Below, in pieces: positions 4,359 to 59,177 of a stretch of DNA of 64,000 nucleotides. The stretch spans positions 235,178 to 299,177 of the forward strand of contig NZ_JAPFGB010000004.1 of NCBI RefSeq assembly GCF_026241095.1, written 5' to 3'. The DNA comes from Saccharopolyspora sp. NFXS83 (GTDB taxonomy: Bacteria > Actinomycetota > Actinomycetes > Mycobacteriales > Pseudonocardiaceae). A program made the position numbers and the translations under genes. Within the stretch, counting starts at the first letter, position 1, and each line of letters opens with the position of its first letter. The notes under the pieces are model-generated. The model ran no database searches. It was not told the DNA's origin and saw only the letters and a list, made by a program, of their open reading frames with translations.

Positions 4359-4458
4359 GATCGGAGTTCCTTCCGGACCGGTGATCTCGCACAGCAGTCT
4401 GCCGAACCCGCGCCCCGATCACCAGCGAGTTCCCGGGATCGTTCCGCTCGGGTGCCCG

Positions 4459-4640
4459 GGTGGTGCACCCTCCTCCTCGCTGCGGGACCGGCTTCCCGAG
4501 CGGCTCGGCCACGAGGGAAGTCGCCGCCATCGCGCGAGGGGCGCTGCGAACCGGCGGAGGATCGGCCTGCGCACGCGGTCCCAAGCGCGCTCGACGGGCA
4601 CGTCCTTCGGCCGCGAGGCAGGCGCGGCTCCGCCCGCCCT
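4459..4640 (-). repeat. Nested-palindrome repeat, copy A (degenerate)
   Basis: A worn copy of the dispersed intergenic repeat best seen at 26150-26340 and 49890-50120, in reverse orientation. Recognisable are CTCGCTGCGGGA at the core edge, inner arms CTTCCC (4492-4497) and GGGAAG (4515-4520), and a flank near 4610-4635 (CCTTCGGCCGCGAGGCAGGC) matching the reverse complement of copy E. The outer stem is largely lost. It lies between the divergent nucleotidase gene and the nrdAB leader. Confidence 0.55.
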
Positions 4641-4720
4641 TCGCAGGCTGACGGCCTCGCCACGCCGACGATGATGGGGTTCGGATCAGCGCCGAACCCT
4701 AGATGTAGTGTGGCGCCCGC

Positions 4721-4918
4721 TGATGGTTCACCGGGATCGCCCGGTGTGACAACAGGGAACCCGGTGCGAATCCGGGACTGCCCCGCAGCGGTGAACGGGA
4801 ACGACCGCCGTCACCACCTTCCGTGGTGGTGCAGCACTGAGCGCGATGCTCGGGAAGCGACGGCCAGTAGGTCCGGCGTCGACGACGCCGGGTGCCCGTG
4901 AGTCCGAAGACCTGCCAT
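4721..4918 (+). promoter_or_regulatory. Cobalamin (B12) riboswitch controlling nrdAB
   Basis: The leader carries the conserved adenosylcobalamin aptamer elements in order: GGTTCACCGGGA, then AACAGGGAACCCGGTGCGAA, the CTGCCCCGCAGCGGT segment, the GACGGCCAGTAGGTCC B12-box region, and the closing GAGTCCGAAGACCTGCCATC. It ends about 140 nt before the nrdA start. In Streptomyces a B12 riboswitch is known to shut off the oxygen-dependent nrdABS operon when B12 lets class II NrdJ work; the same logic is likely here. A weak TAGATG/TAGTGT -10-like sequence lies just upstream at about 4700. Confidence 0.93.
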
Positions 4919-5055
4919 CGGTGCGCGCACGAGGGGTGCGCGCCGTCCGGGACCTCGCGGGAGGGTCGCGGGACGAGCGGTGCCGCGCGCACCGCGGTCC
5001 TGGCGCGTTCCGCGCAGTTCCGGGCTGATGTCCGAGCTTGCGAGGGAGAGAGCCA

Positions 5056-9568: not shown

Positions 9569-9628
9569 TTGCGTACCTTCCGTTCCGTCGTGCTCTCCGG
9601 AGCACCGATCGCCCGACGTTCGCCGTGC

Positions 9629-10144
9629 TCAGGTCGGCAGTGCCGCGACAAGTGCGTTCAGGTCGAACGTCGTGGTGCCGTCCGGGTCGCGGTGGGCGAT
9701 GTCGTCCTGCGGGAGGAAGCGCACACCGGCTGCCGCCAGCTGGGCGTGGTGGGCGGCGTAGGCGGAATGCCGTCGCAGCGCCGGTTTCGCGCACGTCGCC
9801 GCGACGATCGGCACCTCGGCGCAGAGCAGTTCGTTGAGCACGCCGAGCACTGCCGTGTTGTTGACGCCGATCGCCCACAAGTTCAGCGTGTTGAAGCTCA
9901 GCGGTGCGACCAGGACCGCGTCGGCGGCGGGGAACGGATCGGGTTCTCCCGGCTTGCGCGGGAAGATCCGCGGTGGCCGCCCCGCTGCGCTCTCCAGTTC
10001 CGCCGGGTCGAGCCGTTCCGCCGAGGCCTCGGACAGCACCGGGCACACCGCCCACCCGGCGGAGCGCGCGACGCCCGCCAGTTCGGGCAGCTGCCGGACA
10101 GGCGGAGCCGCCGTGCCGACCAGGTAGAGCACCCGCCCGCTCAC
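9629..10144 (-). CDS. HFCD-family flavoprotein, copy 1
   Basis: 171 aa from GTG 10144. The fold is that of homo-oligomeric flavin-containing cysteine decarboxylases (PPC decarboxylase, EpiD): an early LYLVGTAAPPVRQL strand-loop and VLVAPLSFNTLNLWAIGVNN, matching the family PxSxNT segment. The usual MNxxMW substrate loop is replaced by a CAKPALRRH segment, so decarboxylation is doubtful. The start overlaps the stop of the upstream XRE gene (GTGA), which suggests translational coupling. It is clearly paralogous to the gene at 12029-12550. Confidence 0.75.
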   Translation of the reverse strand: MSGRVLYLVGTAAPPVRQLPELAGVARSAGWAVCPVLSEASAERLDPAELESAAGRPPRIFPRKPGEPDPFPAADAVLVAPLSFNTLNLWAIGVNNTAVLGVLNELLCAEVPIVAATCAKPALRRHSAYAAHHAQLAAAGVRFLPQDDIAHRDPDGTTTFDLNALVAALPT

Positions 10145-11874: not shown

Positions 11875-12028
11875 GGAGGCGGCGAGGCGGCACCGGCCAC
11901 CTCCGGAAACCAGATCGGGCAGGTCACCGCAGCCCGCGTTCAGGGCCCGCGGGGACTCGGTCGGCACGGACGTACCCCCGGCAACGACGATTCCCCGCGG
12001 CGGGCCGACCGCGTGCACGCGACGTCCC

Positions 12029-12550
12029 TCATGCCGGGACCGGCACCGCTGCGCGGAGTTTCTCAAGGTCGAAGGTGGCGGTGCCGTCCGGGGCGCGCAC
12101 GAGGGTGTCGGACTGCGGGAGGAAGCGGACGCCCGCCTGCTCCAGCAAGGCCCGGTTCGTGGCGTAGGCGGGGTGGCGGCGCAGGATCGACTTCACGCAC
12201 GGTGCGGCGACGATCGGCACTCCGAGGCAGAGCAGTTCGTTGAGGACGCCGAGCGCCGCCGTGTCGTTCACGCCCATCGCCCACTGGTTGAGGGTGTTGA
12301 ACGTCAGCGGCGCCACCAGGACCGCGTCCGCGGCGGGAAACGGGTCGGGTTCGCCGAGGTGGCGTGCGGTGATCCGGGCGGGGATGCGCGCCGCGCGTTC
12401 CAGCGCGGGCACGTCGATCCAGGCCGCGGCCGACTCCGACAGCACCGGGCACACCGTCCACCCGGCGGAGCTCAGCAGGCCCACCAGCTCCGGCAGCTGC
12501 CGGACCGGCGGAGCCGCCGTGCCGACCAGGTGCAGCACCTGCCCGCTCAC
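12029..12550 (-). CDS. HFCD-family flavoprotein, copy 2
   Basis: 173 aa from GTG 12550, the position equivalent to the copy-1 start. It is paralogous to 9629-10144 through its length: VLHLVGTAAPPVRQLPEL, DPFPAADAVLVAPLTFNTLNQWA, GVLNELLCLGVPIVAAPCVKSILRRHPAYA and a TATFDL end. A GTGA overlap with the upstream XRE remnant (stop 12547-12549) repeats the arrangement of copy 1. It therefore comes from duplication of an XRE-flavoprotein pair; the regulator half has since decayed while this half stays open. Confidence 0.75.
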   Translation of the reverse strand: MSGQVLHLVGTAAPPVRQLPELVGLLSSAGWTVCPVLSESAAAWIDVPALERAARIPARITARHLGEPDPFPAADAVLVAPLTFNTLNQWAMGVNDTAALGVLNELLCLGVPIVAAPCVKSILRRHPAYATNRALLEQAGVRFLPQSDTLVRAPDGTATFDLEKLRAAVPVPA

Positions 12551-18111: not shown

Positions 18112-18149
18112 GGGAAGTACTCGCCGATGGCTCGCTCGGTGGTCGGGTG

Positions 18150-18305
18150 GTGGAACCTCAGCGGTGTCCCCGCTGCGGGATCTTTTTCCCGAGCGTCTCC
18201 GCCACGAGGGAAAAAGGCGTCCTCGCGAGGACACCGCTGCGAACCCGGCGGTGGTCGCCACGTTCAAGCTGGTCGCTGCTCAGCGGCTTCGCCGCTGACA
18301 AGACG
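18150..18305 (-). repeat. Nested-palindrome repeat, copy B
   Basis: Reverse orientation. Outer arms CAGCGGTGTCC (18159-18169) and GGACACCGCTG (18229-18239) are perfect. Inner arms TTTTTCCC (18183-18190) and GGGAAAAA (18208-18215) enclose a GCGTCTCCGCCACGA-like loop. A small CAGCGGC/GCCGCTG hairpin at 18281-18297 closes the element. It follows the DUF574 methyltransferase gene and could end its transcript. Confidence 0.8.
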
Positions 18306-24557: not shown

Positions 24558-26129
24558 ATGCACCTGTTCCCGGATCTGATGGTGCTGCTGGCGGTGGCGC
24601 TGGCGATCACCGCCCTCGCCCGCCGGTGGGGCCTGTCCGAACCGCTGGTGCTGGTGCTGGCCGGTCTCGCGCTGTCGTTCGTGCCCGGCGTGCCGGACTA
24701 CTCGATCAACCCGGAGCTGATCCTCGTCCTGGTGCTGCCGCCGCTGCTGTACTCGGCGGCGCTGACCAGCTCCACGCTCGGATTCCGCGCCAACGCCCGC
24801 CCCATCGGCTCGCTGGCCCTGGGCGCCGTGCTCGTCACGACGGTCGTCACCGGACTGGTGGCGTGGTGGCTGGTGCCCGCGATGCCGCTGGGCGCCGCGC
24901 TCGTGCTGGGGGCGGTGGTGGCGCCGCCGGACGCGGTCGCGGCGACGTCCATCGGCCGCAGGCTCGGGTTGCCGCGCAAGGTGATGACGGTGCTCAGCGG
25001 CGAAAGCCTCGTCAACGACGCGACGGCGCTCACCGCCTACCGGGTCGCCGTGGCCACCGTGATCGGAACGGGGTACTCGCTGGCGGCGGGAGTGGGCGTG
25101 TTCCTGCTGGCCGCCGTCGGCGGGCTCGTCGTGGGCTTCGCGGTGGGCTGGGTGGTGCACCGGGTGCGGCAGGCGCTGTCGGACGGGGTGCTGGAGAGCG
25201 CGGCGGGCTTGCTGGTGCCGTTCGCGGCGTACCTGCTGGCCGAGGAGATCGGCGCGTCCGGAGTGCTCGCCGTGGTCGTCGCCGGTCTCTACCTGGGCCA
25301 GCGGTCACCGACGGGCAGCGCCTCGGTGCGGTTGCAGGACCGGGCGGTGTGGCTGTCCGCGGACACGCTGCTGGAAGCGCTGGTGTTCGCGCTCATCGGG
25401 CTCCAGCTGCGCGGCGTCACCGAAGGCGTGGCGGGGCAGCTGGGGCCGCTGGTGCTGGTCGGGCTCGCGCTGACCGCGACGGTCGTGCTGGTCCGGGCGC
25501 TGTGGGTGTTCACCACGATGCAGCTGCCGGAACTGCTGCTGCGCCGCGGCACCGCCCCGCCGTGGCGCTACGGAGCCGTGGTGTCCTGGGCCGGGATGCG
25601 CGGCGTGGTGTCGCTGGCCGCGGCGGCGGCGATCCCGCAGTTCACCTCCTCCGGCGCGATGTTCCCGCAGAGGCCTCAAGTGCTGTTCCTGGCGTTCTTC
25701 GTGACGCTGGCGACGCTGCTGCTGCACGGGGCCACGCTCCCGTGGGTGATCCGGGCGCTCGGCGTGCGCGGCCAGGAGAACTACACCGACGCGCTCGCCG
25801 AAGCGGAAGCCGCGCACAACGCGGCGCTCGCGGCGCGACGGCGGCTGGAAGAGCTGTCCGAAGACGAAGCGCCGCCGGAAGAGGTGACCGAACACCTGCG
25901 CCGGGCCGCGGAACGCCGCAGCAACCGGGCCTGGGAACGGCTCGGCCGCTCCGACGCGGAAGTGGGCGAAAGCCCCAGCGCCGCCTACCGCAGGCTGCGC
26001 GCGGAAATGCTCGCCGCGGAACGCGAGGTGTTCGTGCGCTTCCGCGACGAAGGCCGCATCGACGATGAGGTTCTACGCCGAGTCCTGCACGAACTCGACC
26101 TCGAAGATGTGATGTTGCAGAGGGAGTGA
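24558..26129 (+). CDS. Na+/H+ antiporter, CPA1 (NhaP) family
   Basis: 523 aa. About 12 hydrophobic segments fill residues 1-410. Ion-site motifs include VLPPLLYSAAL near residue 63, VAPPDAVAATS near 120 and GESLVNDATAL near 150, which holds the ND pair of electroneutral CPA1 exchangers. A charged cytoplasmic tail of ~110 residues, rich in E and R, probably regulates activity. The role is export of Na+ or K+ for protons in pH and salt homeostasis. GGGAGGACGGAG precedes the ATG. Confidence 0.92.
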   Translation: MHLFPDLMVLLAVALAITALARRWGLSEPLVLVLAGLALSFVPGVPDYSINPELILVLVLPPLLYSAALTSSTLGFRANARPIGSLALGAVLVTTVVTGLVAWWLVPAMPLGAALVLGAVVAPPDAVAATSIGRRLGLPRKVMTVLSGESLVNDATALTAYRVAVATVIGTGYSLAAGVGVFLLAAVGGLVVGFAVGWVVHRVRQALSDGVLESAAGLLVPFAAYLLAEEIGASGVLAVVVAGLYLGQRSPTGSASVRLQDRAVWLSADTLLEALVFALIGLQLRGVTEGVAGQLGPLVLVGLALTATVVLVRALWVFTTMQLPELLLRRGTAPPWRYGAVVSWAGMRGVVSLAAAAAIPQFTSSGAMFPQRPQVLFLAFFVTLATLLLHGATLPWVIRALGVRGQENYTDALAEAEAAHNAALAARRRLEELSEDEAPPEEVTEHLRRAAERRSNRAWERLGRSDAEVGESPSAAYRRLRAEMLAAEREVFVRFRDEGRIDDEVLRRVLHELDLEDVMLQRE

Positions 26130-26149
26130 CAACAGCAAAGCGCCCGAAT

Positions 26150-26340
26150 ACCGTTCCTCGCGGCCGAAGGGCGTGCCTGGATGCGCGAAGCGCATAGCCC
26201 ACGTCGAAAAGCCGACCACCCGCGGGTTCTCAGCTGTCTTCTCGCTGCGGGATCTTTTTCCCGAGTGGCTCCGCCACGAGGGAAAAAGCTGTCCTCGCGA
26301 GAAGACAGCTGAGGTTCCGCCGCCTCACCACCAAAGCAGA
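26150..26340 (+). repeat. Nested-palindrome repeat, copy C (core inverted)
   Basis: Outer arms TCAGCTGTCTTCTCGC (26230-26245) and GCGAGAAGACAGCTGA (26297-26312) are a perfect 16-bp pair. The 51-nt core between them holds TTTTTCCC and GGGAAAAA with an inner GTGGC-TCC-GCCAC hairpin. The left flank (GCGCATAGCCCACGTCGAAA) and right flank match copy E in the same direction, yet the core matches copy E only when reverse-complemented. It lies between convergent antiporter and iclR genes and may also terminate both. Confidence 0.9.
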
Positions 26341-26354
26341 ACGAGCCCAGCCCC

Positions 26355-27149
26355 TCACTCCTCCAGGAAGCCGAGTTGGCCGGAGAGTTCCTTGGCTGCG
26401 ACCTTCATGGCTCCGACTACCTCTCGCATGCGTTTGCGGGAGAAGCGGTACGAGGGGCCGGAGGCGCTGAGGGCGGCGACCACTTCGCCGTCGTGGCGGT
26501 GCACGGCGACCGCCGCCGCGTTCAAGCCCAGTTCGAGCTCTTCGTAGCTGGTGGCGTAGCCGTCGCGCACGATGAGCTGGAATCCGCCGCGCAGTTCGGC
26601 CGGGTCGGTGACGGTGCGCGGGGTGTACTGCGCGAGGTCGCCGTCCAGCAGCACGTCCTGGTCGTCGACGGGCGCGTGCGCCAGCAGCACCTTGCCGCTG
26701 GAGGTCGCGTGCAGCGGGGTGCGCTGACCGACCCAGTTGTGCGCCGTCACGGAAGCGGTGCCGCGGGCCTGGCTGATGTTGATCGCCACGTCGTCGTCGC
26801 GGACCGCGATGTTCACCGTCTCGCCGAGGTCGCCCGCGAGCGACTCGCAGAACGGGCGGCCCAGCCTGGACAGGTCCATCCGGTCGGTGGCGGCACCGGC
26901 GAGCCGGACCACGCCGAAGCCGATGACGTACTTGCCGCGCTCCCCGAGCTGTTCGACGAGCCCGCGCGAGACGAGCACGCTGACCAAGCGGGAGGCGGTG
27001 GACTTGTGCACGCCGAGCTCGACGGCGATTTCGGTGATCCCTGCTTCGCCGTGGCGTGCCAGGAGTTCCAGCACGCTCACCGCCCGGTCCACCGACTGCA
27101 CTAGTGCGCCGGACCGTTCACCGTTGGGAGATCGTCCTGCGTTGACCAC
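26355..27149 (-). CDS. IclR-family regulator, probable controller of the sarcosine/dimethylglycine genes
   Basis: 264 aa. The winged helix-turn-helix is at residues ~17-80 (VQSVDRAVSVLELLARHGEA, GVHKSTASRLVSVLVSRGLV). The ligand-binding domain carries GTASVTAHNWVGQRTPLHAT, SSGKVLLAH and the closing ALSASGPSYRFSR. It lies on the same strand downstream of soxG but has its own promoter region of 325 bp. A GTTGC-N7-GCAAC palindrome there recurs between soxB and the divergent dimethylglycine-oxidase gene, pointing to autoregulation and control of both arms. Confidence 0.93.
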   Translation of the reverse strand: MVNAGRSPNGERSGALVQSVDRAVSVLELLARHGEAGITEIAVELGVHKSTASRLVSVLVSRGLVEQLGERGKYVIGFGVVRLAGAATDRMDLSRLGRPFCESLAGDLGETVNIAVRDDDVAINISQARGTASVTAHNWVGQRTPLHATSSGKVLLAHAPVDDQDVLLDGDLAQYTPRTVTDPAELRGGFQLIVRDGYATSYEELELGLNAAAVAVHRHDGEVVAALSASGPSYRFSRKRMREVVGAMKVAAKELSGQLGFLEE

Positions 27150-46309: not shown

Positions 46310-46440
46310 CGAGACCGAATCCTCGCGGCCGAAGGCCGTGCCCGGATGCGCGAAGCGCGTGGCCCACGCCGAAAAGCCGCTCACTGGCGGGTTCTCCACT
46401 CGTGGCCGAACCACTCAGGAAGAGGATCCCGCAGCCAGGC
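46310..46440 (+). repeat. Nested-palindrome repeat, copy D (stem degenerate)
   Basis: The left flank is well preserved: GCGGCCGAAGGCCGTGCCCG, GCGCGAAGCGCG and CCCACGCCGAAAAGCCGCTC, matching copies C and E. The palindromic core is eroded, with CACTCGTGGC and GGATCCCGCAG remnants only. It lies between the convergent methyltransferase and universal-stress genes. Confidence 0.7.
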
Positions 46441-46516
46441 ACCACGCCAACCACACGACCGAACCGGGGAAGCCCCTCAAACCCGAGGCCCCACCCCAGC
46501 TCTGAATCCGACCCGA

Positions 46517-49889: not shown

Positions 49890-50120
49890 CTGTCTTGCGG
49901 CCGAAGGCCGTGCAGTGAGCGGCGAAGCCACGCCTGCCTTGCGGCGCAGCCGTGCTTGTATGCGCGCCAGCGCATAGCCCACGTCGAAAAGCCGCTCACC
50001 CGCGGGTTCGCAGCGGCTTCCTCGCGAGGACAGCTTTTCCCTCGGGGCGGAGCCACTCGGGAAAAAGATCCCGCAGCGAGGAAGCCGCTGAGGCTCCGCC
50101 ACCTGCCCCCAGAGCAAAAC
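49890..50120 (+). repeat. Nested-palindrome repeat, copy E (fullest copy)
   Basis: Outer arms CAGCGGCTTCCTCGC (50011-50025) and GCGAGGAAGCCGCTG (50076-50090) are perfect 15-bp complements. The 50-nt core (50026-50075) contains CTTTTCCC and GGGAAAAA around GGCGGAGCCAC. Its reverse complement differs from the core of copy C by about one substitution and one indel, while both flanks run in the same direction as in copy C. The left part also holds a GCGGCCGAAGGCCGTGC-type segment shared with copy D. Confidence 0.9.
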
Positions 50121-50199
50121 GAGCCGTGGAATCAGTTGGGACGTGAGTCACAAGAGACCGGCCGTTTCAGGGGGGTTCCGAGTCCTACCATCGGTTCCC

Positions 50200-54307: not shown

Positions 54308-54470
54308 TCTGTCTTGTCAGCGGCGAAGCCGATGAGCAGTGACCACGCACGCAGCCGGACCACCGGCGGGGTCTCAGCTGCTTCCTCGCGAGAACAGCGA
54401 TTTCGTGGTGCAGGGACCTACATGAGAAATCGATCCCGCAGCGAGGAAGCAGCTGAGGTTCCGCTGAACG
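54308..54470 (+). repeat. Nested-palindrome repeat, copy F (compensated stems)
   Basis: Outer arms TCAGCTGCTTCCTCGC (54374-54389) and GCGAGGAAGCAGCTGA (54441-54456) are perfect. The inner arms have changed to CGATTTC (54398-54404) and GAAATCG (54426-54432), still complementary, with an unrelated loop. Spacers GAGAACAGC and GATCCCGCA show the copy-E core direction. The CTTGTCAGCGGCGAAGCC left end matches the right end of copy B. It is inserted inside the mutAB-meaB operon. Confidence 0.88.
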
Positions 54471-54504
54471 ACCCGCTACGCAGCCCACCCCGCAAGGACT
54501 TTTG

Positions 54505-58978: not shown

Positions 58979-59103
58979 CGGTGCCCCGGCCGCTTCCGCT
59001 GCTCGCGGCCGATGCCGCCGCCCGCCGAGGTGATCCGGTGGGCGCCCGCGTGGTGAGGCGGCACTCGTTGCCACCCGACGCACGGGCGTGAGACGTTGGT
59101 CGT

Positions 59104-59136
59104 GAGCCCGACGACGTGGCTCCCGGACGAGGGGTG
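59104..59136 (+). promoter_or_regulatory. Possible guanidine-II (mini-ykkC-like) riboswitch
   Basis: The leader of the SMR gene has a hairpin GAGCCCG-ACGA-CGTGGCTC (59104-59122, one bulged T) with an ACGA tetraloop, then a second weaker hairpin with ACGA at 59127-59130 between CCC and GGG. Guanidine-II riboswitches consist of two hairpins with ACGR loops, often before SugE/Gdx genes. The second stem is poor and the usual linker is nearly absent, so this is tentative. Confidence 0.25.
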
Positions 59137-59177
59137 CCGTACCCGGTGTGCGACAAGACGGCCCGGAGGAGTCCGTG

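Follow-up and report, generated by a model that had tools for sequence, protein, structure and literature searches.

Why should a copy of a hairpin repeat read one way in its flanks and the other way in its centre? This question is raised by copy C, located in a stretch of 64,000 nt (here called the window) of Saccharopolyspora sp. NFXS83, contig NZ_JAPFGB010000004.1, positions 235,178-299,177, a genome designated G000 in what follows.

Copy C has a reversed core between perfect arms

On the forward strand, copy C starts with a left flank of the "young" tail type (26141-26221, delimited by alignment of 30 genome copies and copy E, with an approximate outer limit), which contains small GAA-loop hairpins (e.g., 26180-26195, GATGCGCGAAGCGCAT) and next GCCCACGTCGAAAAGCCGACCACCC. 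The 99-nt nested hairpin (26222-26320, forward strand), defined by fold and covariation, has the order GCGG-GTT-arm-core-arm-GTT-CCGC. Its 17-bp left arm CTCAGCTGTCTTCTCGC (26229-26245) and right arm (26297-26313) are perfect complements and are bounded by a symmetric GTT/GTT mismatch (26226-26228 and 26314-26316), all on the forward strand, whereas the 51-nt core (26246-26296) lies on the reverse strand relative to the common direction, which reads GAGGACAGC...GATCCCGCA. The right flank (26321-26349, forward strand) extends as far as ...GCAGAACGAGCCC. Upstream lies a gene for a sodium/hydrogen exchanger (24558-26129, forward strand; Pfam PF00999, E 5.6e-54), and copy C adjoins the 3' end of a converging gene for an IclR-type regulator (26355-27149, reverse strand; Pfam PF01614 and PF09339), with its stop codon at 26355.

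Folded as single-stranded DNA, the hairpin gave a z-score of -8.9, with none of 200 shuffled sequences being equally stable. The core of copy C was identical to the family consensus core at 50 of 51 positions after reverse complementing vs. 32 of 51 when compared directly, the maximum for 20,000 shuffled cores being 26 of 51. An earlier note on this DNA had claimed that both flanks of copy C run parallel to those of copy E (49890-50133, forward strand, outer limits approximate; hairpin at 50002-50099), and the alignment revealed that left and right flanks are indeed homologous and parallel. The reversed core of C differed from that of E by one substitution and one 1-nt indel, as claimed. The arms are perfect, as also proposed, but measure 17 bp instead of 15-16 bp.

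Copies A (4408-4557, reverse strand), B (18134-18304, reverse strand, with an old-type left flank and a modern-type core) and F (54311-54480, forward strand, old type), all with approximate outer limits, had been assigned the direction of E, and this was confirmed; copy D (46320-46457, forward strand), with a damaged left arm, also has the common direction. Within these limits, A, B, D and F are placed at 4489, 18182, 46425 and 54432, respectively. At gathering scores, Rfam gave no match to the hairpin repeat in the whole window, and positions 26100-26400 yielded two hits only, both far below gathering. Elsewhere the window holds a cobalamin riboswitch (4707-4933, forward strand; RF00174, 93.8 bits) and a guanidine-III riboswitch (59101-59167, forward strand; RF01763, 61 bits), as well as two segments of 300 nt each (9614-9913 and 12020-12319) that are 74% identical and perhaps belong to paralogous genes.

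A dispersed hairpin repeat family

Copy C is a member of a dispersed hairpin repeat family that occurs in Saccharopolyspora and in further genera of the same taxonomic family, with copy numbers per genome ranging from a few to a few hundred. Relatives of the IclR-type protein encoded beside copy C place the window in or close to Saccharopolyspora. A BLAST search of G000 (6.9 Mb, 70 contigs) with copy C gave 92 matches, many of them the second, reversed match of one copy, and the highest score among first-look candidates was 40 of 318. A 14-base core motif occurred 494 times in this genome with up to two mismatches, vs. 64 times for the reversed control. The repeat matched 11 of 41 related genomes: G000 to G005, of one genus, four from other genera of the family, and a weak match in another family of the same order. 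Two flank classes were distinguished, the young one with a left tail of small GAA-loop hairpins and the old one with a hairpin such as CAGCGGCGAAGCCGCTG. In more distant genera (L129, L140 and G018, the latter with arms such as CTCGTGGCTGG), the arm layout differs.

The hairpin repeat was not matched in plasmids, phages or viral contigs. In literature searches on palindromic or dispersed repeats of Saccharopolyspora, we found no description of this family, and the genus name is absent from the main texts of PMC3733652 and PMC12306157. The earlier note had suggested a non-autonomous mobile unit. This is plausible, because copy numbers, arm-type frequencies and site occupancy vary between species, although no transposase was identified. 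A RAYT-type Y1 transposase (PF01797) was considered as the mover and rejected, since it was not found in the four genomes richest in copies (G000 to G003, with G000 being 97.5% complete); it was likewise not found in G018 and G019. The same domain is present in the element-bearing G004, G005, G010 and G017, and also in G012, which has no element match. By eye, no target duplication was evident in the orthologous-site alignments.

The arms are copy-specific and stay paired

Perfect 17-bp arms were present in 102 of 172 collected rows and comprised 28 types. Left and right arms differed on average by 1.03 mismatches over the 172 rows, vs. 3.94 when right arms were shuffled among rows, a test that is independent of any predicted fold; L129 and L140 were each read twice (so that 172 rows correspond to 170 distinct hairpins, and a larger set of 190 rows to 188), and their second readings contribute mismatches, not matches, to it. 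RNAalifold predicted 28 pairs for 178 common-direction sequences, with standard pairs in 4,779 of 4,936 cells (96.8%), a value that is optimistic because the counted alignment also served to predict the fold and the core motif was partly used to find the copies. Many paired positions varied on both sides among these 178 sequences.

Outside the arms, the GTT/GTT mismatch was present on the left in 184 and on the right in 181 of the 190 rows. The right-flank GTT was replaced by AAC, which extends the palindrome, in 4 of the 190 rows (L061, L064, L066 and L104), the left-flank GTT in none; a fifth such copy, L065, lies outside this set. The ends of the hairpin are conserved as the inverted pair GCGGGTTCTCAG / CTGAGGTTCCGC.

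We have also considered that arms might be captured from a local terminator. At G001 site 144169, a native hairpin in G000 shares an arm with the element. Over 179 copies, there was no clear excess relative to shuffled arms, and the idea was unsupported: for a word length of 10, five cases were observed and 300 shuffles averaged 1.9 and reached 5 at most, with no excess for lengths 9 and 11.

Copies lie at gene ends in a fixed orientation

The stop codon of a converging gene was located 20-49 nt from the right end of the hairpin in 97 of 179 copies, in a fixed orientation, vs. 34 of 3,000 random points. The result was 96 of 176 when the rows listed under the window were left out, and 3 of 5 for the flipped copies. 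A converging gene ended within 400 nt of the right end in 125 of 179 copies, with no comparable peak at the left end. Gene ends were assigned with a crude method based on GC bias. The 38 filtered copies in 800 kb of G001 were distributed over convergent (14), tandem (21) and divergent (1) gaps, with 2 placed inside genes by a crude gene finder, the gaps of at least 100 nt in this region being 57 convergent, 199 tandem and 55 divergent.

The family is therefore a REP-like extragenic palindrome in the broad sense, having many copies that are extragenic, 3' of genes and rarely between divergent genes. We infer a role for it at transcript 3' ends.

Flipped cores are rare and differ in their arms

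We have counted flips with two patterns of the same length and stringency that differ only in which core end stands beside the left arm; they were run on 10 genomes, one per species, and read the left junction only. Common-direction matches totalled 981 (G000, 144; G001, 323; G002, 257; G003, 117; G004, 28; G005, 27; G010, 1; G017, 6; G018, 78; G019, 0), and 5 of 986 left-junction matches (0.5%) were flipped: 2/146 in G000, 3/326 in the single-contig G001 and 0/514 in the other eight genomes. Among the collected rows, 5 of 172 were flipped, yet the frequency is taken from the pattern counts only, because the row sets were gathered partly by core-matching searches. Gathering copies genome-wide and orienting them by their flanks, as the earlier note had advised, upheld the homology of C and E and revealed flips beyond C.

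The direction of the five flipped rows was clear, with 1-3 flank mismatches vs. 19-21 in the opposite flank orientation and 0-1 core mismatches vs. 9-10 in the other direction. Even for the least clear common-direction rows, core scores were 5 and flank scores 6 apart. Some of the scans were rich in chance hits, and counts were taken from filtered sets. Six G000 matches with up to two mismatches were rejected as flips: C5, C41 and C17 run in the common direction, their right flank having been altered to match the left, C12, with flanks read by eye, is like them, and C47 and C67 were assigned the common direction by eye from their flanks, the degraded C67 being the least clear.

No two of the five flipped copies share a left arm, and both flank types occur among them, so that several flip events are likely. 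All five carry the TC inner-loop allele, a weak hint of a common origin, such as a single flipped master copy that arose once and then dispersed like other copies. The diversity of left arms and flank classes argues against such an origin, and the TC allele is found anyway in about half of the readable copies of G000 (20/41) and G001 (16/34), making a master copy quite improbable.

The position of the core between inverted arms would also suit a site-specific recombinase that inverts it as a phase switch. Against this, there are at least 28 arm types, so that the conserved recombination sites of invertons are absent, and flips make up only 0.5% of the left-junction matches. Flipping between inverted arms, as the earlier note put it, is the right description of copy C, but its suggestion of an actively invertible element is unsupported, because flips are this rare, arms differ between copies and one flip is shared by the orthologous sites of G001 and, as seen for the right half, G000. 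A recombinase is accordingly very improbable.

Flipped sites in related genomes

At the site of copy C, the copies are in the common direction in G001, G004 and G005, being of the old type in the latter two; the G001 copy has other arms and another gene on its left, and G002 and G003 have no copy. The comparison of this G001 region (L155, G001:C1:4686566) with copy C (L001) revealed that its left gene is unlike that of G000 and of G002 to G005, which places a rearrangement breakpoint at or near the repeat.

The L152 site is flipped in G001, has an old-type common-direction copy in G002 and is empty in G003 to G005. In G000, contig C19 starts within the core at this site, in the flipped direction and with the orthologous right flank, so only the right half is seen. 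This suggests that the flipped state was inherited. It also bears on assembly error at the hairpin repeat as a source of flips. Such an error could be suspected since the ends of several G000 contigs fall within or close to copies and the flips on C26 and C19 are at contig starts. However, a flip at one orthologous site in two separate assemblies makes misassembly unlikely, three flips lie in the single-contig G001 and copy C is inside a contig. Moreover, usual reads are longer than the 99 nt of the hairpin. Taken together, we regard assembly error as extremely improbable. The draft G000 assembly itself breaks at the repeat, as contigs C9, C13, C14, C18, C19, C20, C21, C26, C32, C36 and C40 have ends inside or near copies.

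The L154 site is flipped in G001, with a damaged common-direction copy in G000, a young common-direction copy in G002 and none in G003 to G005. Because each relative's copy is unlike the flipped one in its arms or its core type, another copy may also have supplied the hairpin here. At the L151 site, the element is present in G001 only. No ancestor-descendant pair differing solely by the flip was found, as orthologous sites varied in arms or core type.

Hairpins turn over at fixed sites

Turnover was assessed with 23 G001 copies from the first 410 kb under strict occupancy criteria. Fifteen could be placed in G000, where 5 sites were occupied, and 19 in G002, where 10 were occupied; damaged G000 copies at sites 47755 and 53281 were missed by the strict filter. 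None of the 15 occupied orthologous pairs had identical arms, though the flanking matches were 80-97% identical. In two of these pairs (G001 sites 204892 and 62530), the G002 element was on the opposite strand and had different arms, and the pair at site 438485, from a relaxed G001-G002 scan, had the same arms on opposite strands. At G001 site 39470, G000 and G002 keep the element flanks and the hairpin is missing. Some arm types were common to old and young flank classes (5/33 in G000, 6/25 in G001 and 2/13 in G002), which points to exchange between copies. From the pair turnover, the hairpin-less site and the recurring arm types, it follows that exchange, new insertion or both renew the hairpins at fixed sites.

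These data are the ground for the main rival explanation of the flips, ectopic gene conversion. As either arm is the complement of the other, the hairpin of another copy could pair with the recipient's arms in either register, and a minority of exchanges would insert it inverted. This would give the same end state and would fit the rapid renewal of hairpins, the arm types found in both flank classes of one genome and the lack of shared arms in all 15 pairs (5 G001-G000 and 10 G001-G002). Two of the three G001 flips are, in addition, modern-type hairpins inside old-type flanks. On the other hand, the conserved asymmetric flanks should favour the correct register, a donor copy was identified for none of the flips, and the opposite-strand pairs indicate that new insertion at the same gene ends may also explain the turnover. 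We therefore judge gene conversion to be unlikely, with a chance that is still appreciable. In a broader and likewise rather doubtful proposal, the hairpin, arms and core together, would be a cassette exchanged among framed 3'-end sites without the outer flanks, in either orientation and by a route involving no known transposase.

Template switching as the favoured mechanism

On balance, we lean towards the view that this is a REP-like 3'-end hairpin and that template switching between its arms during replication inverts the core from time to time, in agreement with the replication-slippage inversion offered in the earlier note. During replication, the hairpin arms would cause the polymerase to switch template. 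One type of switch would copy one arm from the other, so that the arms stay paired. In a second type, the polymerase would cross to the opposite strand within one arm and return within the other, inverting the 51-nt core between them, as in C. The core has a fold of its own, which would draw both arms together. The spacer of C is reversed between its arms with the flanks unchanged, which is the pattern expected of a template-switch spacer inversion. The inverted core, the copy-specific paired arms, the several flipped copies, the flip at the L152 site of two species, the extended palindromes and the flanked site lacking its hairpin were all observed. Template switching and slippage at an inverted repeat are able to produce homogenized arms, a longer palindrome, a lost hairpin or an inverted core. 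We consider it probable that the flips arose by template switching and not by exchange between copies. Among the points against this, the 257 matches of G002 include no flip, the palindrome is extended in the right flank only, and no flipped copy was found together with an ancestor that differs in the flip alone.

Relation to known systems

As described in the part of PMC8604942 consulted, template switching between short inverted repeats in yeast leads to arm homogenization and spacer inversion, with published spacer inversions changing 2-5 bp. The consulted part of PMC8794818 describes inverted rRNA hairpin loops of mostly 4 nt, some of 7-8 nt, with one case from Actinobacteria, and regards the combination of arm correction and loop inversion as extremely rare. 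Our repeat resembles both systems, as far as these parts describe them, in having arms in register, a spacer inverted between arms and palindrome extension, but differs from them in its far longer 51-nt core with a stem of its own and in being a dispersed repeat family. This greater length and the rarity stated in the rRNA study count against the favoured reading. Judging from these same parts, spacer inversion is already known, and its occurrence over 51 nt in a bacterial repeat family is new. The palindrome-bounded small inversions of plastids (e.g., trnH-psbA, PMC2903610, in part) are similarly short, palindrome-associated and recurrent in several lineages, but those are in an organelle spacer and have no dispersed repeat family.

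According to the part of PMC3733652 used here, REP elements lie downstream of coding regions, between convergent or tandem genes. With REP, REPIN and BIME elements, as covered in parts of PMC3733652, PMC3116915 and PMC12306157, the family shares many hairpin copies per genome, convergent or tandem gaps and a position downstream of coding regions. It differs from them in its 99-nt nested hairpin with two internal loops, flanks, fixed orientation and narrow stop-codon distance. Like a REPIN, it has inverted conserved ends that form one hairpin, but G000 to G003, G018 and G019 have no accompanying RAYT/Y1 gene.

If hairpins do move as cassettes, the flipped cores would be visible wrong-way insertions, and each species would rapidly renew its hairpins and have a mix of arm types peculiar to it. 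The usual evidence for template switching at hairpins consists of changes of a few bases. Here, up to a few hundred oriented copies per genome with asymmetric conserved loops make inversion, arm homogenization, extension and loss countable together, and such a repeat helps to tell selection on paired RNA from mutation that keeps the arms paired.
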